In this document: positions 1 to 12,973 of the stretch, one piece after another
How the letters are laid out: every line of letters starts with the position of its first letter
Numbering within the stretch: position 1 is the first letter of the stretch
NCBI GenBank assembly: GCA_003719395.1
Contig: RHMC01000006.1
Span: 1-64,000, forward strand
Direction of reading: 5' to 3'
DNA length: 64,000 nt
Source of the DNA: Streptomyces altiplanensis
Lineage (GTDB): Bacteria > Actinomycetota > Actinomycetes > Streptomycetales > Streptomycetaceae
Made by a program: the position numbers and the translations under genes
Notes under the pieces: model-generated
What the model was told of the DNA's origin: nothing
The model's input: only the letters and a program-made list of their open reading frames with translations
The model's database searches: none

Positions 1-100
1 CGACGAACGTGGTCTTGCCCACGCCGAAGCCGCCCGCCACCACGATCTTCGCGGAAGTCGTGGTGCGGGCCGTCCCGCCGCTAGAGCTGGCGAAGTCCAC
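1..100 (-). CDS. cvnD: CvnD-type GTP-binding protein, partial (N-terminus only)
   Basis: The window begins inside this gene, so only about 33 N-terminal residues are present. They read from a GTG at 100 and carry a P-loop, GGFGVGKTTFV, preceded by KIVVAGGFG. This is the start of the small Ras-like GTPase that closes conservon operons. The GTG lies inside the last codons of the upstream DUF742 gene (20 bp overlap), which indicates translational coupling. Family knowledge: CvnD works at the membrane with the CvnA sensor, the CvnB roadblock protein and CvnC, loosely like a eukaryotic G-protein receptor complex. The rest of the GTPase (switch regions, NKxD) lies beyond the left edge and cannot be checked. 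Confidence 0.9.
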   Translation of the reverse strand, partial: MDFASSSGGTARTTTSAKIVVAGGFGVGKTTFV

Positions 101-488
101 TGAGCACCCTTTCCAGCAGCGTGACGTCCGGCGTGCCGCCGGCCTCTCCATTGCCCGGCTGGTGGATCGCCACCATGCCGGCCTCCGCCAGGTCGGCGAC
201 GAGGATCCGGGCGACGCCGAGCGGCATCGACAGCAGTGCCGACACCTCCGCCACCGACTTGACCTCACGGCACAGATGGCAGATCCGCTGGTGCTCGGGG
301 AGCAGCGTGGACAGGTGTGCGGGATCGGCGGTGGTGCTGACCAGTGCCTCGATGGCGAGCTGGTAGCGCGGCCGGGTCCGGCCGCCGGTCATCGCGTACG
401 GACGTACCAGCGGCTGGTCGCCCTCGTGGTCGTACGACGCGTCGTAACGCGTCCCGTACGGATCACGAGAGGCGGGGGGCGGGGTCAT
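81..488 (-). CDS. cvnC: CvnC, DUF742 conservon protein
   Basis: This 135-residue protein matches the DUF742 family that forms the third member of conservon operons. It contains the family-typical stretch VRPYAMTGGRTRP near residue 30 and a winged-helix-like C-terminal part (VAEVSALLSMPLGVARILVADL). I chose the ATG at 488 because a GGAGG ribosome site lies 8 bases upstream; a TTG at 512 is in frame but has no such site. It overlaps cvnD by 20 bp and follows cvnB after 115 bp. DUF742 proteins are thought to be DNA-binding or scaffolding partners in Cvn signalling, and no enzymatic residue is visible. The frame is intact. Confidence 0.92.
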   Translation of the reverse strand: MTPPPASRDPYGTRYDASYDHEGDQPLVRPYAMTGGRTRPRYQLAIEALVSTTADPAHLSTLLPEHQRICHLCREVKSVAEVSALLSMPLGVARILVADLAEAGMVAIHQPGNGEAGGTPDVTLLERVLSGLRQL

Positions 489-603
489 GGATCGATCCTC
501 CGGGCATGACAACAGGGGATGGGCCTGCGGTCTGACGGGGCCGGGGTGGGGGGCTGCGCGCGGCCTTTACGGTCTGTTCTCGGCAATACCTGCGGTGCGC
601 GGT

Positions 604-1026
604 CTAGTGGAGAAGACTGCCCTGAAGCTCCGCACGGAGGTCCGGGGTGAGAACGCTGCCGGCCCGGTCGACCAGCAGCGCCATCTCGTAGCCGACGAGG
701 CCGATGTCGCAGTCGGGGTGGGCGAGCACGGCCAGCGAGGAGCCGTCGGACACGGACATCAGGAAGAGGAAGCCGCGCTCCATCTCGACGACGGTCTGGG
801 TCACAGCCCCGCCCTCGAAGATCCGGGACGCCCCCGCGGTCAGCGAGGTCAGGCCGGAGGCCACGGCCGCCAGCTGGTCGGCACGGTCGCGCGGGAAGCC
901 TTCGGACATCGCCAGAAGGAGTCCGTCGGCGGAGACCACCACCGTGTGGGACACCCCTGGGGTGTTGTCCACGAAGTTGGTGATCAACCAGTTCAGGTTC
1001 TGGGCCGCCTGGCTCATCGGACTCAA
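604..1026 (-). CDS. cvnB: CvnB, roadblock/LC7-domain protein
   Basis: This 140-residue protein is a roadblock/LC7 fold: an N-terminal helix (AQNLNWLITNFVDNTPGVSH) followed by the typical VVVSADGLLLAMSEGF strand pair and a second helix-strand unit ending LVDRAG. Roadblock proteins bind small GTPases, and in conservons CvnB is believed to regulate CvnD. The start is the TTG at 1026, directly after the TAG of cvnA and six bases from an AGGAG site; an ATG at 1017 (MSQAAQ) is the alternative. Immediate adjacency to cvnA implies coupled translation. The frame is intact, unlike that of its upstream neighbour. Confidence 0.92.
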   Translation of the reverse strand: MSPMSQAAQNLNWLITNFVDNTPGVSHTVVVSADGLLLAMSEGFPRDRADQLAAVASGLTSLTAGASRIFEGGAVTQTVVEMERGFLFLMSVSDGSSLAVLAHPDCDIGLVGYEMALLVDRAGSVLTPDLRAELQGSLLH

Positions 1027-4000
1027 CTAACGCTCCTGCTGGTGAGTGGGGTCAATGGTGAAGCTGCCGGTCGTCGAGCCGTTGCTGCCGGCCTGGCGAC
1101 CCTGCTGGATACCCCGACGAAGATTGGTCAGCCGGCCGCGTACGTCGTCAGGCGCACGCGAGACCTGCGGACCGGTCTGGTGGTTCTGCTGCTGCGCGGT
1201 GCCCGGCACCAGATTGGCGCGCGGGACGCGACGCGGCAGACCCGAGGTCGTGACACCGCCGGCTGCGGGCTTCTTGACCCGCTCGGCCTGCTTTACGAGT
1301 TCGTCGTTCGGCGAGGTGCGCCAGGCGGCGCCGTTGGTGGCGTTCGTACCGTTGGTGGTGCTGCTCGCGGCACCCGTGTCGCGCGCCTGGGCGCGCTGCG
1401 GCATCGGAGGGGTGGCGGCGTGCGCGGCAGAGGTCTGCTGCGCCGGCCGCCCGGACTGCTGCTGGGGCTGCTGGGGCACGGGGGGTGCGCTGCTGCTGCT
1501 CGCCCTGCTGGAACCAGTTCGACTCGAGCGTGTCGAAGAGCGGCGTACGTTCGTCACTGGGGCCGGGGGCGGGCGGCAGCTCGTGCTGCGGCTGCTGCGG
1601 AGGCAGGCTCGCGACGGCGGACGCGGCGCGGCGCCGGAGTTCGCGGGGTTCCCCGTGTTCTCGCGGCCGTGCCGGCGCGGCGCCACCGGGCCGAGGCCCT
1701 GGGGCGCGCCCTGGCCCGGGTGCTGACCCTGGCCGTGCGGCTGCATCTGGCCGCCGTAGCCCGCCGGGCCGGTCTGCTGCGGGGCGCCGAAGTCCGGTCC
1801 GGCGAACTGCGCGGTGGACGCGGTCCTGCGGAGCCTGGAGCTCGGGCCGCTGGTACTGGCCGGCCGGGCCGTTGCCCTGCGGGGCGTTCGGCCCGGGCCC
1901 GGCGAACTGGCTTGTGGACGCAGGGTCCTGCGCACCGCGGGCACCGGGACGCTCGTACTGCCCGGTCGCCTGCTGGTTCACGGGACCGCGTACGTCGGAA
2001 CGCTCGAACCGGCCCGTGGAGGCGGGCGGCGGTCCGTCGAAGTCCGGCCGCTGGAACTCGGCGGTCGAGCCGGGACCCTGCCGGTCCGCGGCCTCTTCGT
2101 GACCGCGCGGCTGGTCGGTGCCCCAGCTGGTGGTCTGCGGACGCGCCGGACGCTGCGGGGCGGCGGAGCCGGGCAGTTCGGCACGCTGGCCCTGGCCGCC
2201 ACGGGACGGCGGCTGCTGCTGCGCACCGCCCCCCTGACCGCCCTGGGCGGGGTCGCTCTTCTGGAAGGCGTCCCGGCGTACGCCGGGACGCTCGCGGTTG
2301 CCGGCCTGCCGGCTGCCGCCGAAGGCACCGGAAAGACCGCCGCCCTGACCGGACCGGCCCGGAGCGGAGCCGGGCTGCTGGCCCTGGCCCTGGCCCCCGT
2401 CGCGCCCGGGCAGCGCGGCACGCGGACCGGAGCCCGCGACCTGGCCGCGCGCGCCACCGGAACCGGCGGGCAGCCGTCCCGCCGGAGCGGAGCCACCGGC
2501 GAGACCGGGACGGGCACCGCCGGCCGGCCCACGGCCGCCGGGGCCGGAGGGCACCTGCGGCTGGGCCGCCGCGCCGGTCTTGGTCGGAGCCTGCTTGCCG
2601 CCCTGGGCGAGATCGACGGCAGCATGACCAGCGCGGTCGTGCCACCGGAGTCGGAGGGACGCAGCTGGATGCGGATGCCGTGCCGCAGGGACAGGCGGCC
2701 GACCACGAACAGACCCATGCGGCGCGAGACCGAGACGTCCACGGTGGGCGGCGAGGCGAGCCGCTCGTTGATCGCGGCGAGGTCCTCCGGCGACAGGCCG
2801 ATACCGGTGTCGTGGATCTCGACGAGCACCCGCCCGTCGGGCAGCGCGTGACCGGTGACGCGGACTTTGGTCTGCGGAGAGGAGAACGACGTGGCGTTCT
2901 CCAGCAGCTCGGCGAGGAGGTGCACGAGGTCGTTGACGACGCGTCCCGCGACCTCGGTGCCCGGCACCGAGGACAGCTCGATGCGCTCGTACTGCTCCAC
3001 CTCGGACGCGGCGGCACGCAGGACGTCGACGAGCGGCACGGGCCGGGTCCAGCGGCGGCCGGGCTCTTCACCGGCGAGAACGAGCAGGTTCTCGCCGTTG
3101 CGGCGCATGCGGGTCGCGAGGTGGTCGAGCTTGAAGAGCGAGGAAAGCTGGTCGGGGTCGGCCTCGCGCGACTCCAGCTCGGAGATGAGCGAGAGCTGAC
3201 GCTGGATGAGGCCCTGCGAACGCCGCGACAGGTTGGTGAACATCGCGTTGACGTTGCTCGCAGCAGCGCCTGCTCGGCGGCGAGGCGGACCGCCTCGCGG
3301 TGCACGTCGTCGAAGGCCGCGGCCACCTTGCCGATCTCGTCGCGCGAGTGCACGCCGACGGACTCCACGGACGTGTCGACGTCCTGCGGGTCGGCCTCGG
3401 AGAGCTGCTTGACGAGCTCGGGGAGACGGTCCTGGGCGACCCGGGTGGCGGTGTCCTGGAGCCGGCGCAGCGAGCGGATCATGGAGCGGGCCACGACGAA
3501 CGCGCCGACGAGCGAGACACCGAGGACGAGCAGGATCAGCGCACCGTTGAGGATGGCGTCCTGCTGCGACTCGTCGCGCAGCTCACGAGCCTTCTGCTCC
3601 ATCTCGTTGAGGAGCGTGGTCTCGATCTGCTTCATGGCCTGGATCTTGTTGGAGTCCGCGTCCGTCCAGTCCATGTACGAACGCGGGAGCTCACGCCTGA
3701 GCCCGCCCGACGTCTGCAGAATCCGGTGCGCGTACTTGTCGGCGGCCTCGATGTCGGGCTTGCCGGTGTCCAGCGGCGCGGTCAGTTCCTCGGCGTCGCC
3801 CACGTAGACGGAGGCGAACGAATTGCGCGCCGCGTCCTCGCTCTCCATCGCGGACTTGGCGAAGAGACGGTCGCCCTCGTTGAGCTTGCCCGTCTCCCGG
3901 TTGTTGGCCGGCAGCGCCGCGGCGATGATCGCGCGCTGGATGGAGGCGTACTCCTTGGCGGAGGAGAAGGCCGCCAGGGCGCGCGTCCGCTTGATCATCT

Positions 4001-4732
4001 CCGGGTTGGAGGTGGCCTGCGCCATGTCCTGGGAGAGGCTCAGCAGCGAGGTGATCAGCTGGCTGTAGTTGTTGACCGTCTGCGAGTTGGACGTCTTCTG
4101 GTACGCGTCCTCGCGGATCTGGCGGATGGAGTTCAGCCGGCCGGCGATGTCCCGGAGGCTGACGCGGATGCTCCGGAGGCTCTCGTCGCCTTCCGTCTCG
4201 ATGTTGTTCGTACCGGCGATGAACGCGTCCCTGGCCCGGTCGGTCTTGTCCCGGGGACCCTTCACCTTGAAGTCGGCGGGGCTGGTGCCGTTGGCGAGCG
4301 GACCGGCCGACTTGTCGCGCTCCTCCTGGAGCGCGGCGGCGAGCTCGGTCGCCTGCTTGGTCATGTCGGTCAGCAGCTGCATGTGCTCCAGCTGCTCCAT
4401 GTCGTTCATGGACTCGTTGATGCGCAGACCGCCGAGCGTGGTCGCCGCGACCACCGGCAGGGCCAGCAGGGAGACCAGACGGGTGCTGATGCGCCAGTTG
4501 CGCAGGGCTATTCGCGAGCCCGTGGAAGTGGGCTCCTTGGCTCTCACGGGAGCGGCCTGAGCCGCCTGCTCACCGCCGCCCTTGGCCGCGGTGCGCGCGC
4601 CGCGATCGCCGCCACCGTCGCCGCCGCGGCCGACGCGTGCTTCTGGGCGTGCTGGGGCGAGGATCCGCGGTCGGTCCCGCGCGGCTCCTGCTCCGCCGCA
4701 GCGCTGCCATCCCTCTTGAAACGTCCCTGCAC
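1027..4732 (-). CDS. cvnA: CvnA, nitrate/nitrite-type sensor histidine kinase (several frameshifts)
   Basis: Membrane sensor kinase of the conservon. Reading from a GTG at 4732, it has a charged N-tail, a membrane helix near 4440-4500 (LVSLLALPVVAATTLGG), a long extracytoplasmic nitrate-sensor-like helical domain (4400-3600), a second membrane helix (LILLVLGVSLVGAFVVARSM, about 3480-3540), HAMP, a dimerisation helix (LSRRSQGLIQRQLSLI), an HATPase domain with ELLENATSFS and IHDTGIGLS, and a very long proline/glutamine/glycine-rich C-terminal tail to 1027. The frame breaks near 4600, 3256 and 2617 and about three times between 1830 and 1480, mostly single-base losses. All pieces are conserved and colinear, so I treat it as one gene. 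It heads the cvnABCD operon. Confidence 0.88.
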
Positions 4733-5245
4733 TAGCGTCGCAACCTCTGGACCAGGCGTTCCTCCGCGTGAACGGCGGAACGGTGTCGAGTCGTGGGGCA
4801 CCGAACGGCCCCATGGGTGGTCGTGAGTGACCGGCGCTTCTCCCCTTCCCGCCGCCACTCGGCGCTGCGTTGTGCGCCCTGCGCGCCGGCTGGAATCTCG
4901 CGGCGGTCCGGGGAATTCCAGCACAGTGCCGGATCTCCAACAAGGCCCGCGTGTCGGGCCGCGACCAGCGTGACAGGGCGTGAGGGATGCGTGACAAGGT
5001 GTAGAAACAATTCGGGTCTAAAAGGGGCAAAAGGGAGTGAGTCGCTTAGGGGTGGGGGGTGTCCCAGTCCTGATGATCAGGAGCGGAATCATGCCTTCAG
5101 TGGCGCAATGTCCGTTTCCCCGGTCCGAGGATCCCGCCCGAAATGATCGATATGCCTGCCATCTCGTGAGGAAACTCACACACTGTTCCCGTCTGCTTCA
5201 CATCTTTGACGGGGAAGCGGGTGTTTAGCCTGACGCTTTACAGGG
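4733..5245. other. Intergenic region between cvnA and the TANPRRT peptide gene
   Basis: This 513-bp non-coding stretch separates the divergent cvn operon and the small peptide gene, so promoters for both should lie here. I see a triple GCGTGA direct repeat (4968-4994) and a possible -35-like TTGACG at 5206 with a TAGCCT at 5226, although that spacing is short. Nothing in it looks like a conserved protein. Confidence 0.5.
4968..4994. repeat. Three GCGTGA direct repeats at helical spacing
   Basis: GCGTGA occurs at 4968, 4978 and 4989, spaced 10 and 11 bp. Two of the copies continue as GCGTGACA. This phasing is what a protein binding one face of the helix would need. The site is about 240 bp upstream of the cvnA start and 250 bp upstream of the small peptide gene. 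A regulator is not identified. Confidence 0.4.
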
Positions 5246-5485
5246 ATGGCGAATCCGACAATCACCGCGCCCGGCCGACCGGCGCCCCTACCGACAAGGC
5301 TTGAACAGCAGATGAACACCATGACGATGTTCCGCAGCACCGCCAACCCGCGCCGCACCACGCTGGCGCACCTCGAGGACGCCACGGACCTGCAGACGGC
5401 CGAGCGGCCGGAGCACCCCGTCGAGCTCCCCTCCGAGACCGCCAACCCGCGCCGGACCATCCTCATGGAAGCCCCCGCCGCCTAG
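5246..5485 (+). CDS. Small peptide with duplicated TANPRRT(T/I)L motif, unknown function
   Basis: I do not recognise this family. The longest reading gives 79 residues from ATG 5246; in-frame ATGs at 5312 (MNTMTMF) and 5321 would give about 57 and 54 residues. The initiation site is uncertain: an AGGG abuts the first ATG, and an AAGG lies 12 bases before the second. The striking feature is STANPRRTTL in the middle and ETANPRRTIL near the C-terminus, separated by an acidic segment (LEDATDLQTAERPEHPVE). There is no cysteine, membrane segment or signal peptide. A short repetitive design resembles a precursor peptide or a bivalent binding peptide, but no modifying enzyme lies beside it. It sits between the divergent cvn operon and the FAH-family gene. 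Confidence 0.7.
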   Translation: MANPTITAPGRPAPLPTRLEQQMNTMTMFRSTANPRRTTLAHLEDATDLQTAERPEHPVELPSETANPRRTILMEAPAA

Positions 5486-5583
5486 TCGGACGCGGCGGCG
5501 ATACGGGAGGCGGGACCCCTCGGCCGCGTTAGCCTGGAGCGTCAGTCTCCGGCCAGCCAGCAAGTAAGGGGCGGCAGCATCCC

Positions 5584-6390
5584 GTGCGCATCGCCAGGTT
5601 CTCCATCGACGGCAATGTCGCCTTCGGCGCGGTTGAGGGTCCCAGCGCCCCAGGCGCAGAGGCAGACCTCGTCCTCGACATCATCAAGGGCATCCCGTAC
5701 GCCGACTTCGAGCTCTCGGGCGTCAAGGTCCCGCTGAGCAAGGTCCGGCTCCTGCCGCCCGTGCTCCCCAGCAAGGTCGTGGCCGTCGGCCGCAACTACG
5801 CGGAGCACGCGGCGGAACTGGGCAACGCCGTCTTCGACGATCAAGGCCGTCCGGACGCGCCCCTCACCTTCTTCAAGCCGTCCACCTCGGTGACCGGCCC
5901 GGGTGACGACATCGCGTACCCCTCCTTCTCCAGCGAGCTGCACCACGAGGCCGAACTGGCCGTGGTCATCGGCCGCATGTGCCGTGAGGTCCCGCGCGAG
6001 CGCGTCAAGGACGTCGTCCTCGGCTACACCTGCGCCAACGACGTCACCGCACGCGACGTCCAGCAGCGCGAGAAGCAGTGGGCCAGGGCCAAGGGCTTCG
6101 ACACCTCGTGCCCGCTCGGCCCCTGGGTGGAGACCGATCTCGACCCCGGCGATCTCGCCATCCAGTGCACGGTCAACGGCCAACAGCGCCAGCTCGGACG
6201 CACGAGCGACATGATCCGCTCCGTCGAGGACCTGATCGTGCACATCTCCGAGGCCATGACACTGCTCCCGGGCGACGTCATCCTCACGGGTACCCCGGCC
6301 GGAGTCGGACCCCTGAACGTCGGCGACGAAGTCGCCGTCACCATCGAAGGCATCGGCACTCTCACCAACAAGGTGATCAAGCGTGGCTAG
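5584..6390 (+). CDS. Fumarylacetoacetate hydrolase family protein
   Basis: This 268-residue protein begins at a GTG with an AAGGGG site upstream. It carries the FAH fold: an N-terminal adapter part, then [13 protein letters not shown], the metal-binding [14 protein letters not shown] (acidic ligands), and a C-terminal [17 protein letters not shown]. The family acts on C-C bonds of 2-oxo or diketo acids (acylpyruvases, oxaloacetate decarboxylases, hydratases) with Mg2+. The sequence does not fix the substrate. Its stop overlaps the gltX start by 8 bp, so the two are probably cotranscribed and translationally coupled. The frame is intact. Confidence 0.9.
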
Positions 6391-11548: not shown

Positions 11549-12973
11549 ATGGGTAGGACACTTGCGGAGAAGGTCTGGGACGACCATGTCGTCAGGCGCG
11601 CCGAGGGCGAGCCGGACCTGCTCTTCATCGATCTGCACCTGCTGCACGAGGTGACCAGCCCGCAGGCCTTCGACGCCTCCGCAAGAGCGGCCGCCAGGTG
11701 CGGCGGCTCGACCTCACCATCGCCACCGAGGACCACAACACCCCGACCCTCGACATCGACAAGCCGATCGCGGACCCGGTCTCCCGGGTGCAGCTGGAGA
11801 CGCTGCGCAAGAACTGCGCGGAGTTCGGCGTACGGCTGCACCCGCTCGGCGACGTCGAGCAGGGCGTCGTCCACGTGGTGGGACCGCAGCTGGGCCTGAC
11901 CCAGCCCGGCACCACCGTGGTCTGCGGCGACAGCCACACCTCCACGCACGGCGCGTTCGGCGCGCTGGCCTTCGGTATCGGTACGTCGCAGGTGGAGCAC
12001 GTCCTGGCCACCCAGACGCTGCCGATGGCGCCCCCGAAGACCATGGCGATCACGGTCGAGGGCGAACTGCCCGCCGACGTAACCGCCAAGGACCTGATCC
12101 TGGCGATCATCGCGAAGATCGGCACCGGCGGCGGTCAGGGCTACGTGCTCGAATACCGCGGCTCCGCCATCGAGAAGCTCTCGATGGAGGCCCGGATGAC
12201 CATCTGCAACATGTCCATCGAGGCCGGCGCGCGCGCGGCGCATGATCGCCCCGGACAAGACCACCTTCGACTACCTCCAGGGCCGTGCGCACGCCCCGCA
12301 GGGCGAGGACTGGGACGCCGCCGTCGCCTACTGGCAGACGCTGCGCACCGACGACGACGCCGTCTTCGACGCGGAGGTCGTCATCGACGCCGCCGCTCTG
12401 GCGCCGTTCGTCACCTGGGGCACCAACCCGGGCCAGGGCGCGCCGCTGTCGGCGAACGTCCCCGACCCTGCTTCGTACGAGGACCCTTCGGAGCGCTTCG
12501 CCGCCGAAAAGGCCCTGGAGTACATGGGGTTGACCGCGGGGCAGCCGCTGCGCGACATCAAGGTCGACACCGTCTTCGTAGGTTCGTGCACCAACGGCCG
12601 CATCGAGGACCTGCGGGCCGCGGCCGCGCTGATGGACGGCCGCAAAGTCGCCGACGGCGTACGGATGCTGATCGTCCCGGGCTCCGTACGGGTCGCGCTC
12701 CAGGCCATCGAGGAGGGTCTGGACAAGGTGTTCACCGCCGCCGGGGCCGAATGGCGGCACGCGGGCTGCTCGATGTGCCTGGGCATGAACCCCGACCAGC
12801 TGGCCCCCGGTGAGCGCTCCGCGTCCACCTCCAACCGCAACTTCGAGGGCAGGCAGGGCAAGGGCGGCCGCACCCACCTGGTGTCGCCGCAGGTGGCCGC
12901 CGCGACGGCGGTGCTGGGCCACCTGGCCGCGCCCGTCGACCTGTCCGACGTTCCGACGCTCGTGGAGGCCTGA
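11549..12973 (+). CDS. leuC: 3-isopropylmalate dehydratase large subunit (two frameshifts)
   Basis: Aconitase-family Fe-S subunit that isomerises 2- to 3-isopropylmalate in leucine biosynthesis with LeuD. Conserved parts are [41 protein letters not shown], the first cluster cysteine in VGSCTNGR, the other two in [10 protein letters not shown], and [12 protein letters not shown]. The frame shifts near 11675, where one G of GACGGCCTC is missing, and near 12235, where one base is added in a GC run. Corrected, it gives about 475 residues, the normal length. It starts at ATG 11549 and is followed 5 bp later by leuD. Expression is probably controlled by NdgR from the divergent promoter. Confidence 0.95.

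Follow-up and report, generated by a model that had tools for sequence, protein, structure and literature searches.

A 57-codon gene with two copies of a short motif lies divergent from cvn1

The window, a 64,000-nucleotide stretch of a Streptomyces altiplanensis contig (RHMC01000006.1), carries conservon genes on its minus strand: cvnC1 (81..512; DUF742, Pfam PF05331), cvnB1 (604..1026; roadblock/LC7, Pfam PF03259), and cvnA1 (1557..4732; NIT, HAMP, and HATPase domains by Pfam, the NIT domain at E 7.2e-44). On the plus strand lie a gene of 57 codons for a twin-motif mini-protein (5312..5485) and an FAH-family gene (5584..6390; Pfam PF01557 and PF10370), its usual but not obligatory downstream neighbor. 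The original prediction had described an open reading frame with two decamers around a spacer, divergent from cvnABCD and upstream of an FAH-family gene; this arrangement was confirmed for the frame, the decamers, the FAH-family gene, and cvnA, cvnB, and cvnC, with cvnD lying outside the window.

The predicted start of the mini-protein gene at 5246 was corrected to the ATG at 5312, which gives a product of 57 amino acids. A start at 5246 would lie near the expected transcription start; the stretch 5246-5311 is unconserved, conservation begins at the ATG, and the frames of some relatives (loci L006, L009, and L021) open only just upstream of the conserved start, and it is for these reasons that we place the start at 5312. 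The start codon is GTG in many relatives. The protein contains TANPRRTTL (copy 1; 5339..5365, plus strand) and TANPRRTIL (copy 2; 5438..5464, plus strand) with 24 residues between them, giving the consensus [T/I]ANPRRTxL, and the repeat is also visible in the DNA (22 nt, 95% identity, 99 nt apart).

As had been predicted, the mini-protein belongs to no known family that we searched: it matched nothing in Pfam, NCBIfam, or PHROG, a family scan of 26 members returned only one-member matches at E 0.0099 or worse, and comparisons with PDB, plasmid, and phage sequences gave no match. AlphaFold returned no confident fold (mean pLDDT 58.2, pTM 0.15; a low-confidence model built from 31 similar sequences). 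The protein has no membrane, secretion, or hydrophobic export segment (best 19-residue mean, -0.28) and a net charge of about -2 (6 K+R, 8 D+E). Its Streptomyces coelicolor counterpart is probably SCO5545, since a table in PMC4595836 lists sco5544-sco5545 as flanking an ScbR2 site; SCO5545 is annotated there as a "putative uncharacterized protein." The literature searched, which lay outside supplementary files and most subscription papers, yielded no study of the mini-protein or its motif.

Two further observations concern cvnA1, which is frameshifted in the assembly. The frame from its conserved GTG at 4732 stops after 62 codons, the NIT/HAMP and HATPase domains fall in different frames, and leuC near 12240 also looks split by eye; as the assembly consists of 458 contigs, sequencing error is the likely cause of these broken frames. 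The start region of cvnA1 (4706..4758, minus strand; GTG at 4732, N-terminus read as MQGRFKRDGS) is almost invariant DNA in an alignment of 109 loci and has no Rfam match; this near-invariance suggests that translation initiation is additionally constrained or that the region holds an RNA element.

The mini-protein is found across almost all of one family

Our first search found the mini-protein in 35 of 61 genomes: 35 of the 37 same-genus genomes, counting the window's own, and none of the 24 others. The two same-genus misses were G001, which is 79% complete, and G010. In the family sample, a profile search gave a best E value of 6e-15 or better in every same-genus genome; the family-sample tally of 297/297 used a threshold of E <= 1 and includes at least one spurious match (G098). 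In an order-wide sample at E <= 0.01, 230 of 245 genomes matched, with 230/230 in the family, presumably the Streptomycetaceae, and 0/15 in two other families. Among the best-scoring 80 of 454 loci, the named records were Streptomyces in 79 and Kitasatospora in 1. When 30 family genomes were chosen, mostly weak scorers or members of other genera, 28 carried at least two motif copies; the other genera within this set were positive in 21/22 genomes and 15/16 genera. The peptide has been lost in G098 (another genus) and G010 (own genus), both of which keep cvn1.

Outside the genus, a class-level search matched 9 of 354 genomes at E values of 5e-4 to 0.01, where about 3.5 would be expected at 0.01. 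Three of these nine marginal matches were topoisomerase A subunits, and one was a small frame in G776 (L248 1426-1830, minus strand). This 135-amino-acid frame has a single LANPRRTKLD near a possible start (MDTALANPRRTKLD); it matched no family, and no cvn, FAH, or gltX match was found within its 3 kb. It is either a one-motif relative or a chance occurrence.

Both motif copies are under purifying selection

At least two motif copies, with one substitution allowed, were present in all 148 genuine loci (30 from the first search, the best-scoring 80 of 454, 28 of 29 from the chosen family genomes, and 10 from the class-level search; some genomes may recur between these sets). The pair was found by script in 146 loci and by reading in the other two, L017, where one copy reads NPLRT, and L154, where the protein ends at the second copy. 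The motif duplication is not due to chance. Since the regular expression used for the motif itself fixes A, N, R, T, and L/V, invariance was taken from an alignment of 26 members that spans the family (the window, 23 divergent, and 2 close sequences); here, neither copy shows any change at A, N, the second R, or T, and the spacer between the copies varies from 18 to 38 residues. Three motif copies are present in G423, and the G433 protein stops directly after the second motif. Substituted motifs read NPQRT and NARRT or NVRRT in G192 and G339, NPNRT in G092, and NPLRT in G012.

We then compared nonsynonymous and synonymous variation by region in 80 sequences (the window and 79 of the best-scoring 80 of 454 loci, L112 having been dropped for lack of a complete frame; 1,200 sampled pairs). 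Motif 1 had a pN/pS ratio of 0.000 and motif 2 one of 0.108, against 0.467 in the spacer between them, 0.322 in the N-terminus, and 0.658 in the tail, with pS of 0.17 in the N-terminus and 0.27-0.38 elsewhere (0.28 in motif 1 and 0.37 in motif 2). The absolute values are biased low because the loci are the best scoring of 454, and in such close relatives it is the contrast between regions that matters. Low pN/pS with varying synonymous sites means that the motif residues are kept while their codons change. On this point the original prediction holds: next to a conservon stands a small protein, not described before, whose two repeats are functional. Its frame and repeats are conserved across the family, which was the conservation check that the prediction had set.

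The 100 neighborhoods scanned contained no ANPRRT motif other than the peptide's own; the two motifs flagged off locus proved to be the peptide's own first copy. We rejected the idea that the motif is common to other Streptomyces proteins: an ANPRRT DNA pattern matched 39/41 genomes with scattered off-locus matches, but this pattern also admits serine codons, and off-locus matches were counted irrespective of frame. In G089 (L190 near 9838), the open frame holds an extra KTANPRRT ahead of the usual start codon, possibly the result of a local duplication.

A single-copy palindrome and a promoter-like block precede the gene

Upstream of the gene lies the palindrome GTGAGGAAACTCAC (5166..5179), of the CRP/GlxR type GTGA-N6-TCAC. 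Of 61 same-genus genomes, 53 contain the exact 15-mer GTGAG[C/G]AAACTCACA a single time, and no genome contains the reversed control; a looser form, GTGANNAAANTCACA, occurred once in 39/41 genomes, with one control match. The peptide follows the palindrome in 29 of 30 loci checked, the exception being G010. Between GTGA-N6-TCAC and a TAGCCT-like element, the distance was 46 nt in 75 and 45 nt in 5 of the best-scoring 80 of 454 loci. This element is the -10-like TAGCCT (5226-5231) of a promoter-like block, GGGAA(t/g)-N4-TGTTTAGCCTGACGCTTTACA (5212..5242, plus strand), most of which is at least 90% conserved in the 109 aligned loci, a set selected by presence of the palindrome. The exact 13-mer core of the block was found once each in 24/41 genomes, at this locus by coordinates; we rejected a sigma-factor regulon, as the core in the exact form searched occurs only here.

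G010 and G098 lack the peptide but still have the palindrome (in G098 as GTGACGAAAATCAC); it may therefore serve cvn1 or FAH too. GTGAG[C/G]AAACTCAC fits the GTG(N)8CAC pattern of Crp/GlxR operators but does not have the G found in the S. coelicolor Crp consensus GTG(N)6GNCAC, and 393 target genes are reported for Crp (PMC10033298), whereas the palindrome here is single copy; Crp is a candidate binder. In BldO, the dedicated repressor of whiB, Streptomyces has an example of a regulator devoted to a single target (PMC5485038). A dedicated regulator is a possible binder of the present palindrome; if there is one, the single-copy palindrome would be a clean route to it. No Rfam match was found at 4600-5650.

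A second intergenic block conserved in the 109-locus alignment (5058..5090) contains GTGTC, or GACAC on the minus strand, which we take to be a WhiA-type site. WhiA/B, BldC, and BldD bind the cvn1 promoter (PMC6428758; PMC4850268). At 5085..5108 lies a candidate counterpart of the ScbR2 site between sco5544 and sco5545, with 20/24 bases alike by eye (PMC4595836, Table 2); the exact site given there was present in no fetched locus. PMC4595836 also gives sco5544-5545 among the ScbR2 targets, with expression that hardly changes (1.024 and 0.952). The conserved blocks are compatible with the reported binding of BldC, BldD, WhiA/WhiB, and ScbR2.

The gene stays with cvn1 when it is separated from FAH

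A cvnA-like sequence was found in the fetched stretch of 148/149 loci, the exception being the spurious G098 match; cvnA is thus beside the peptide in all genuine loci. It lies on the strand opposite the peptide gene in 146/146 loci tallied, and FAH lies on the same strand as the peptide gene in 138/138. FAH was absent from 8 of 148 loci, namely, four at contig ends (L007, L080, L081, and L112) plus L010, L148, L149, and L156. In G126 (L156) and G349 (L149), an inversion has turned cvn2, cvn1, and the peptide gene as one block with respect to FAH-gltX, leaving the peptide with cvn1; the downstream context in G180 (L148) looks similar to this inversion by eye. In G007 (L010), two predicted open reading frames on the opposite strand lie between the peptide gene and FAH (L238 8353-9828). 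The inversion and the insertion both leave the peptide beside cvn1, so that FAH is a separable neighbor. Two separating events are few, and the shared promoter region itself may prevent the peptide and cvn1 from parting.

Five genomes from other families had a best CvnB match of 80-82% identity; the best FAH match was on another contig in three of them and 1.8 and 7.6 Mb away in the other two. No FAH lay within 16 kb around the best CvnB match in the four other-family genomes fetched (4/4).

The genome of the window encodes CvnB twice, at 96% and 99% identity to the query (G000:C235:3550-3966 and window 607-1026). CvnB pairs lie 5-7 kb apart in G010, G098, and G126, as tandem conservons, and a second cvnA in the loci examined is about 28-33% identical to cvnA1.

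The mini-protein may be a bivalent docking peptide for the Cvn1 complex

The best explanation, to which we give a probability of about 0.4, is that the gene encodes a bivalent docking peptide that stays in the cytosol and has the Cvn1 G-protein-like complex as its most likely target. The product would be a cytosolic, probably disordered protein of 57 residues with two short linear motifs on a flexible linker. Each motif copy would dock in the same pocket of a partner, so that the protein could bind a dimer, or bridge two molecules, by avidity. The most likely partner would be the divergently encoded Cvn1 system next to it, through its roadblock protein CvnB1, through CvnC1, or through the kinase-like CvnA1. 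The peptide may tune or localize this complex; its control would be developmental and perhaps, via a CRP-type operator, nutritional too. We infer translation, disorder, and docking, and the choice of Cvn1 as partner comes from linkage alone.

Duplicate conserved short motifs on a variable linker suggest bivalent docking, and of the two mechanisms proposed originally, a bivalent docking peptide and a precursor of two processed units, it is the former that fits the variable spacer, the invariant motifs, the three-copy member, and the lack of a confident fold or a hydrophobic segment. What points to Cvn1 is that cvnA accompanies the peptide, that the inversion and the insertion keep the peptide with cvn1, and that genomes of other families lack the peptide. 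Against Cvn1 docking, G010 and G098 keep cvn1 without the peptide, the linkage may reflect only a shared regulatory region, and the 100 neighborhoods scanned held no ANPRRT motif outside the peptide. In G192 and G339, which have altered motifs but may simply be close relatives, CvnB1 shows no shared private change, and CvnC1 shows five private changes, two of them at the nearly invariant positions 18 and 129.

The dynein intermediate chain and LAMTOR1/p18 are disordered proteins that partner with roadblock dimers. These would be a structural precedent for the putative docking on CvnB1 by analogy, but they are eukaryotic and their motifs differ from [T/I]ANPRRTxL. Closer to hand are CvnE and CvnF, extra proteins that are likewise genetically tied to a conservon, of which CvnF8 modulates the kinase CvnA8 (PMC13343842). 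CvnE belongs to the P450s and CvnF to the GAF proteins, whereas the mini-protein has no Pfam or NCBIfam domain; both are encoded at the operon end, whereas the mini-protein gene is divergent from cvnA1; and they accompany CvnA proteins without a sensory domain (PMC13343842), whereas CvnA1 has a NIT domain, which counts against Cvn1 as the partner. The conservon signal path is described as poorly understood (PMC13343842), and a small, easily synthesized peptide with a near-invariant nonamer would give a direct handle on it.

Alternative readings of the twin motif

The peptide could instead dock on a partner that is neither Cvn nor topoisomerase, for example, a Ser/Thr kinase, an FHA protein, or a protease adaptor, with its adjacency to cvn1 being a regulatory coincidence. 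We regard this as doubtful but deserving of weight: the same motif evidence applies, the threonine of RRT could be a phosphorylation site, G010 and G098 have kept cvn1 after losing the peptide, and CvnB1 has no private change to go with altered motifs. Against it, cvnA stays beside the peptide in 148/148 genuine loci, and through an inversion.

An improbable reading is that the peptide is a twin mimic of a segment of type IIA topoisomerase A subunits and binds or modulates gyrase or topoisomerase IV. The three topoisomerase matches of the class-level search (G700, G514, and G669; L242, L245, and L249; identified by NCBIfam) fall at the same place in the enzyme, a segment that presumably follows the coiled coil in the ParC/GyrA dimer. 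They read YANPRRTVLMD, HANPRRTVLLE, and HATPRRTLLME, respectively (longer stretches, EVANEYANPRRTVLMD, EVAHAHANPRRTVLLE, and EVAQAHATPRRTLLME). The ten residues ANPRRTVLMD of the G700 enzyme, from another actinobacterium, are near-identical to motif copy 2 of the peptide, and none of 500 shuffles reached the match of copy 2 to TANPRRTVLMDAP in G700; for copy 1, 2/500 did. The enzymes have 820-880 residues and a single copy, whereas the peptide has two copies in 57 amino acids. In the Streptomyces genome G005, by contrast, the ParC-like protein reads FGTDRRTVLLES at that place, a weak match to copy 2 (reached by 21/500 shuffles) and none to copy 1 (314/500), and the GyrA-like protein reads FGDDRRSKL and matches neither (500/500 and 359/500). 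At this position, solved structures of gyrase A show residues like DDRRTRI or NDERRTEI. The likeness was moreover seen post hoc, with per-genome E values of 4.7e-4 to 0.01 in a search of 354 genomes, and the three matches amount to one resemblance, which could be a coincidence. The mycobacterial mfp conservon is linked with gyrase. The mfp conservon of Mycobacterium tuberculosis has been tied to fluoroquinolone resistance (PMC13015309), which favors this reading. By analogy, a conservon-linked double mimic might let Cvn1 act on gyrase or topoisomerase IV in development, as a counterpart to the mfp-gyrase link, an idea we consider decidedly improbable.

We think it very unlikely that the paired Arg-rich motifs contact RNA or DNA. 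Both contain Arg-Arg, and unusually conserved DNA blocks lie nearby, but the net charge is negative, no known nucleic-acid-binding family was matched, and R is no more invariant than A, N, and T. The second mechanism proposed originally, a precursor of two processed signaling peptides or a RiPP, is highly unlikely: the near-identical units and the third unit in G423 would suit it, but there is no secretion segment, the G433 protein stops right after its second motif, and the neighbors scanned (a subset) are roadblock, DUF742, kinase-like, FAH, tRNA synthetase, HAD, and IclR proteins rather than known maturation enzymes. Barely credible, finally, is a leader peptide controlling FAH-gltX by translation or attenuation, which the shared strand with FAH would favor, as its synonymous sites are free, no run of regulatory codons was seen by eye and no Rfam match was found, and we rejected it on the inversion and the insertion, which part an intact peptide from FAH in G126, G349, and G007 and show that this linkage is not obligate.
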